Below, one piece after another: positions 2,608 through 4,071 of a DNA stretch of 64,000 nucleotides. The DNA lies in NCBI RefSeq assembly GCF_000016525.1, contig NC_009515.1, positions 335,001 to 399,000 on the forward strand, read 5' to 3'. The notes beneath the pieces were generated by a model. That model was not told where the DNA came from, made no database searches, and saw nothing but the letters and a program-made list of their open reading frames with translations. Each line of letters opens with the position of its first letter. Position 1 is the first letter of the stretch. The DNA comes from Methanobrevibacter smithii ATCC 35061 (GTDB lineage: Archaea > Methanobacteriota > Methanobacteria > Methanobacteriales > Methanobacteriaceae). Both the position numbers and the translations under genes were made by a program.

Positions 2608-2695
2608 TAGTTATTTTATCATTTCTATTAAACAACATAATAATGTATTAGAATTTAATTTTAAATAAAGTTTTTTAAAAAATAAGATTTAAAAA

Positions 2696-2759
2696 GTAAG
2701 CCTCAGCTCGCCCATCATTCATCACGTATCAGAGCTCATAGGGTTCATCATTGGCTTAC
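2696..2759 (-). ncRNA. C/D box sRNA (2'-O-methylation guide)
   Basis: Read on the minus strand, this 64-nt segment has every element of an archaeal C/D guide RNA in the right order. There is a 7-bp terminal stem (GTAAGCC, 2759-2753, with GGCTTAC, 2702-2696), box C ATGATGA (2751-2745), a 12-nt guide, box D' CTGA (2732-2729), a 4-nt linker, box C' TGATGA (2724-2719), a second 12-nt guide, and box D CTGA (2706-2703). Twelve-nucleotide spacers are typical for archaea. By the N+5 rule the D' guide would methylate the C in AGCUCAUAGGGU, and the D guide the fifth base of CUCGCCCAUCAU. The RNA begins 7 nt after the PAN stop codon and is followed by T-rich DNA, so it may be processed from the PAN 3' untranslated region. 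Confidence 0.85.
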
Positions 2760-2766
2760 AGATTAT

Positions 2767-4020
2767 TTAAGCAAACATTACGCCTGCTTCTTTTATAAAT
2801 TCATCATCATGTTCCTTGTCAAGAACTTTTTCTACAGCATCCATGAAATCAGTTACTGTGACTCTGTCTCTTTTTTCACGAATAGCAAACATACCTGCTT
2901 CAGTACATACTGCCTTCAAATCAGCACCGGAAAGACCGTCAGTTAAGCTGCTTAGCAAATCCAAGTCAGCTTCCTCATCCAAAGCCATGTTTTTAGTATG
3001 TATTTTTAGGATTTGTTTTCTTCCGTCATCATTAGGAAGGGGAACTTCTATAAATCTGTCAAAACGGCCAGGCCTTAATAATGCAGGGTCTAAAATATCC
3101 GGACGGTTTGTTGCACCGATAATTCCGATATCTCCCCTGGATTCAAAACCGTCAAGTTCAGCAAGAAGTTGCATTAAAGTTCTTTGAACCTCTCTGTCTC
3201 CGCTAGTTGAACTTTTAAGCCTTTTGGCTGCAACAGCATCAAGTTCATCAATGAAAATAATAGCCGGTGCTTTTTCTTTAGCTAATTCAAATACTTCACG
3301 AACAAGTCTGGCTCCTTCACCTATATATTTTTTAACGAATTCGGAAGCTACAATTTTAATAAATGTAGCATTTGTTTCATTAGCTACCGCTTTTGCAAGT
3401 AAAGTTTTACCGGTTCCCGGAGGTCCGTACAATAAAATTCCTTTAGGCGGATCAATACCTATTTTTTCAAATAATTCCGGCTCTTTTAAAGGAAGTTCAA
3501 CAGTTTCTTTAACTTCAACTATTTGCTCTTCAAGTCCACCGATTTTATCATATGTAATGTCAGGTTTTGTTTCAATTTCCATTCCTGTAACATTTGCATC
3601 TTTTTCTGACGGTAAAACTTCTACAATACCAAAAGTCTGTTGGTTCAATGCAACTCTAGAACCTGGCACCAATAATTTTTCATCTAAGAATTTTGAATAA
3701 TTTACTAAAAAGCTAGGTCCAGTACTGCTTTTAACAGTCATTCTGTAATCATCTAAAACTTCAGTAATAGTAGCTAAAACTAAAGGAGGTGATCTAAATC
3801 TTTCTACTTCGGAACGTAAGGATTTAGTTTCTCTTTCTAATCTGATTTTTTCATTTTCAATTAGAACTTTATCTTTTTCCAATTTCCTAACTTTCCACAT
3901 TAAATTACTTTTAGCTTTGGAGTTTTCTTCTTTTAATGAATCTATTTCTTCTTGCATTGATTCAACTTTCTCAACTAACTGTTCTTTTGAAGAATTCTCC
4001 AAATCATTAATATTATCCAT
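2767..4020 (-). CDS. pan: Proteasome-activating nucleotidase (PAN)
   Basis: PAN is an AAA ATPase that unfolds substrates and feeds them to the archaeal 20S proteasome. The 417-residue protein has an N-terminal coiled coil (about residues 10-75), an OB-like region, and an AAA module with Walker A GPPGTGKT (about 199-206), Walker [10 protein letters not shown] (about 254-262) and an ATNRPD sensor region. The C-terminus is MFA, a Phe variant of the HbYX motif that docks into the proteasome. A TTG at 4035 also opens the frame, but GGAG (4033-4030) sits 9 nt before the ATG at 4020, which I take as the start. A C/D guide RNA follows directly downstream, and aMBF1 is divergent upstream. Confidence 0.93.
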
Positions 4021-4071
4021 AGGACTCATCTCCAATAATATTGATTGAAAATTTTTATAATTTCGACATCT

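Follow-up and report, generated by a model that had tools for sequence, protein, structure and literature searches.

A conserved C/D box sRNA behind the PAN gene of Methanobrevibacter smithii and its predicted target in intron-containing tRNA-Met

A 64-nt element with two putative guides lies next to the gene for the proteasome-activating nucleotidase (PAN) of Methanobrevibacter smithii ATCC 35061. Which RNAs would these guides address, and where would the element be transcribed? We analysed a stretch of 64,000 nt around it (contig NC_009515.1, positions 335,001 to 399,000), here called the window. We read the element as a double-guide archaeal C/D box sRNA (probability about 0.9), with a D' guide that would address C34 of pre-tRNA-Met, a D guide that would address the 23S rRNA A-loop, and an origin by cutting from the PAN transcript.

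Archaeal C/D box sRNAs are recognized by boxes C (RUGAUGA), D' (CUGA), C' (UGAUGA) and D (CUGA) in this order, guides of ~12 nt and a short terminal stem. By these sequence criteria the element belongs to the class (Table 1). The complete stem, the four boxes and the two 12-nt minus-strand guides, first described in an annotation pass made from the letters alone, could all be read directly in the sequence. The same is true of the position that this first-pass annotation gave, directly behind PAN: the sRNA starts 7 nt past the stop (ORF end at 2767). A loose C/D pattern, in which the stem was not required, had a single match in the window, at the sRNA site, and none in 100 random windows with the dinucleotide make-up of the window. 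Folding of the sRNA alone gave z = -1.66, which is uninformative, as would be expected for C/D RNAs. No Rfam family reached its cut-off; RF01303 (sR49) scored 13.7 bits against a curated cut-off of 50. The known machinery of archaeal C/D box sRNAs consists of L7Ae, Nop5 and fibrillarin. From boxes, pairing and conservation we infer that the sRNA is expressed and assembled in this way: L7Ae would bind both k-turns, C/D and C'/D', and be joined by Nop5 and fibrillarin.

Table 1 Features of the sRNA locus (window coordinates).
Feature	Position	Strand	Remarks
C/D box sRNA, whole element, 64 nt	2696..2759	(-)	
Terminal stem 5' arm GTAAGCC	2753..2759	(-)	7/7 pairs with 2696-2702; compensatory changes in relatives
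Box C ATGATGA	2745..2751	(-)	kept in relatives; one A between stem arm and box C
D' guide ACCCTATGAGCT, 12 nt	2733..2744	(-)	predicted to pair with pre-tRNA-Met GGCUCAUA (exon) plus GGGU (intron), pointing to C34
Box D' CTGA	2729..2732	(-)	followed by spacer TAC
Box C' GTGATGA	2719..2725	(-)	
D guide ATGATGGGCGAG, 12 nt	2707..2718	(-)	best candidate target: 23S A-loop stem (E. coli C2558)
Box D CTGA	2703..2706	(-)	
Terminal stem 3' arm GGCTTAC	2696..2702	(-)	
TTTTT run directly after stem	2691..2695	(-)	possible transcription end
Host gene, proteasome-activating nucleotidase (PAN)	2767..4035	(-)	NCBIfam TIGR01242, 629 bits vs cut-off 500

The genome had a single intron-containing tRNA-Met(CAU) (G000:C1:697704-697813), with an intron of 36 nt at the canonical position after base 37. 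Inside this gene, at 697734-697745, the sequence GGCUCAUAGGGU pairs with the D' guide in 12 of 12 positions, one of them a G-U beside box D'. On the tRNA side, the duplex takes in eight bases of the exon (GGCUCAUA) and four at the start of the intron (GGGU), and the fifth base counted from box D' is C34. The first-pass annotation had fitted the D' guide to the anticodon loop of a CAU tRNA, with C34 as the marked base, and had named no target for the D guide. The register held, but the exact complement AGCUCAUAGGGU was present in no tRNA and occurred in the genome solely at the sRNA gene itself; the actual target contains the G-U pair. Its suggestion of pairing with an intron-containing pre-tRNA was borne out, as the duplex crosses the exon-intron junction and four of its pairs are intronic. 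The search for targets in tRNA genes that it had proposed succeeded for the D' guide, in tRNA-Met(CAU), and failed for the D guide over 30 tRNA loci. With one mismatch allowed, the D' complement matched five other places in 1.85 Mb. tRNA-Met(CAU) was one of these; the remaining near matches lay outside tRNA loci and were rejected. From the observed density of near matches in the genome we estimate that, with ~35 tRNA genes, a match in the C34 register would arise by chance with a probability of roughly 5 in 100,000.

Only eight contiguous pairs with the D' guide could be formed by the spliced tRNA-Met, the initiator and the other CAU tRNA. Their duplex energies (-10.7 to -11.6 kcal/mol) were about half that of pre-tRNA-Met (-21.3 kcal/mol). 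Since these tRNAs give eight pairs only, unspliced pre-tRNA-Met is the likely substrate. Judged from this pairing, the sRNA almost certainly directs one methyl group to the tRNA-Met anticodon while the intron is still present. The D' guide would pair with the anticodon loop and intron bases 1-4, and fibrillarin would methylate the C34 ribose ahead of splicing. A duplex that spans the exon-intron junction would restrict marking to the elongator precursor and spare the initiator and the other CAU tRNA. Cm34 of tRNA-Met helps keep AUG decoding clean, and the modification would then help tRNA-Met read AUG only.

Both pre-tRNA-Met and guide were readable in 20 relatives. The target was always GGCUCAUAGGGU, and the intron was variable from its fifth base onward. 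Guide position 1, G or A opposite G, showed no covariation with the tRNA. The constancy of the intron GGG is not independent proof of guide pairing, because GGG also belongs to the splicing structure.

Guides for Cm34 of pre-tRNA-Met that pair partly in the intron were predicted earlier, and thus the mechanism is not new. The study describes 18 candidate sRNAs from other archaea, which may include Methanothermobacter (PMC2584109). The sR49-type sRNAs (Pyrococcus, Haloferax and others; PMC2584109; RF01303) are likewise C/D sRNAs apart from the tRNA, address C34 of an intron-containing tRNA-Met and include part of the intron in the pairing, hence act before splicing. The M. smithii sRNA has the same predicted features, with C34 at the fifth base from D' and the intron in four of the 12 pairs. 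It has no detectable sequence kinship with sR49 (see the Rfam score above), and differs in using the D' guide, in the strong constraint on its second guide and in the link of its gene to PAN. In other archaea (Haloferax, Pyrococcus), the tRNA-Trp intron serves as a C/D guide of the sR50 type, which resembles the present case in C/D-guided Cm34 on a precursor tRNA; there the guide is inside the intron, whereas the M. smithii sRNA is a separate gene that would act in trans. The tRNA-Trp(CCA) of M. smithii (~L005:504-654) contains a canonically placed intron of 76 nt. In humans, C/D RNPs with SNORD97/SCARNA97 methylate the same wobble base, Cm34 of elongator tRNA-Met (PMC6601510), but two RNPs are used and intron pairing is absent; the likeness is convergent as far as known. 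In the literature searched we found no description of a Cm34 guide sRNA in Methanobrevibacter, of a PAN linkage of such an sRNA, or of a tRNA guide with an equally constrained second guide.

The sRNA was present in 58 of 60 genomes of the genus. Among 80 named relatives found through PAN, including Methanobrevibacter, Methanosphaera, Candidatus Methanovirga and Candidatus Methanoflexus, 78 had it downstream of PAN; in the two exceptions (L065, L084) the contig ended <80 nt from the PAN stop. A phylum sample of 152 genomes contained the D' guide with its box in 140, from four families and 19 of 20 genera, and the reversed control pattern in none. Among good genomes of this sample the count was 90 of 91. 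The sole good genome without the pattern was G098 (95% complete, same family). PAN was found on the same strand just upstream in 45 of 46 inspected loci from the four families, the remaining locus being cut by a contig end. Both guides and the PAN linkage recurred in four families of one class. By these comparisons, the sRNA has kept its place across an entire class of methanogens, an unusually stable location.

In 84 distinct copies, positions 2-11 of both the D' guide and the D guide were identical. The loci from the phylum sample were selected by the D' guide; the loci found through PAN showed the same D' invariance. Base pairs of the terminal stem were exchanged in a compensatory way: among others, pair 2 changed from C-G to T-A, pair 3 from G-C to T-A and pair 4 from A-T to G-C. 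Methanosphaera and relatives (L115-L120) had an extra TGA before box C' (TGATGATGA), which gives this box two possible registers, of which the second alone leaves a D guide of 12 nt.

With ten of 12 positions invariant and the ends (positions 1 and 12) free, the D guide looks like a guide in use. A role as tRNA guide was rejected, the best score being 7.5 of 12. No site with up to one mismatch was found in the genome besides its own gene, in a sequence from which rRNA was seemingly absent: neither Rfam searches for LSU and SSU nor a 16S primer pattern gave rRNA in the searchable genome, and three single-contig relatives gave no LSU. This suggests that rRNA was left out of the searched genomes. 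Scans of IMG/VR for an archaeal A-loop yielded no archaeal rRNA, but mostly unrelated sequence, one bacterial-type 23S and one eukaryote-like rRNA.

As a stand-in we used two haloarchaeal plasmid rRNA operons. The best site for the D guide lay in the 23S A-loop, on its 3' side, UUCGCCUAUUAA; like this site, the archaeal LSU consensus UUCgCCcgUUAA was paired at all ten positions 2-11. The fifth base of this site is E. coli C2558, with the 23S numbering anchored on C-Um2552-Gm2553-UUCG (PMC12123411). Archaeal C/D methylation is known to cluster in the A-loop, at U2552 and C2556 (PMC4644070). The sRNAs directed there share the helix 92 region with the proposed target; the base predicted here would be C2558, two further on. 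We infer the target from haloarchaeal rRNA and consensus, not from the rRNA of M. smithii. On this basis, the D guide would probably pair with the 3' side of 23S helix 92 and mark E. coli C2558.

The D guide could instead mark 16S C1402 in the decoding centre (universal ACCGCCCGUCA), with the sRNA and its D' function unchanged. Here the duplex has nine contiguous pairs (positions 3-11; -17.2 kcal/mol), N+5 is C1402, and this base is 2'-O-methylated in bacteria, as is its equivalent in eukaryotes, where a C/D RNP acts (PMC11542601). We consider this target rather doubtful. The A at guide position 2, invariant in the 84 copies, would face a C, and position 8 is invariably U, a poorer partner than C for the universal G; the A-loop, unlike the 16S site, pairs at all ten invariant positions. 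It is also very unlikely that the D' guide alone is functional, with the D guide lacking a methylation target or having one in neither rRNA nor tRNA. A second guide has been reported without target for tRNA-targeting sRNAs of Pyrobaculum (PMC7994747), and the genome search, seemingly without rRNA, would agree with this; the ten positions that never change over four families, with both end positions changing, are the pattern of a used guide.

The position between the PAN stop and the T-run suggests a source for the sRNA. Most archaeal C/D sRNAs have no own promoter and are processed from longer transcripts, and a distance of <25 nt from a protein gene is one described arrangement (Tripp et al. 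2017, as reviewed in PMC7994747). The sRNA would be cut from the 3' end of the PAN transcript, and such a release is likely. A T-run of at least five followed the sRNA in most relatives; scans for promoters and terminators of bacterial type were uninformative. Some relatives had a gap of >100 nt to PAN, and in these an own promoter is possible.

The class-wide linkage to the PAN 3' end could also reflect an action in cis: bound to the k-turns in the 3' untranslated region of PAN, L7Ae would control the PAN mRNA, with guiding as a secondary role. L7Ae has been proposed as an archaeal translational regulator (PMC5539422). A pure k-turn element would not hold two guides unchanged, and the distance between sRNA and PAN varies from 4 to 242 nt; we regard this explanation as highly implausible.

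As a guide acting in trans, the sRNA gives this methanogen class, which includes common gut species, a concrete candidate guide for Cm34 of tRNA-Met. The predicted docking of the D' guide offers a reason for the retention of the tRNA-Met intron, and with both guides and the PAN linkage constant over four families, a dual tRNA-rRNA role is directly testable. A wider scenario is unlikely to hold in full: the sRNA would have stood behind PAN since before the four families split and would serve both the A-loop and the wobble base of tRNA-Met; by being released from PAN mRNA it would couple proteasome expression with the methylation of the translation machinery, and the intron of tRNA-Met would be retained as docking site.

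Also on the minus strand of the window, two overlapping ORFs (2203-2607 and 1587-2288), taken together, resembled a single membrane protein; its bacterial PH domain (PF03703) was found in ORF 1587-2288. Relatives had both parts in one frame, indicating that a frameshift splits the gene in the window. It is at or near a run of nine A (~2292-2300) and may be a sequencing error, decay or slippage.
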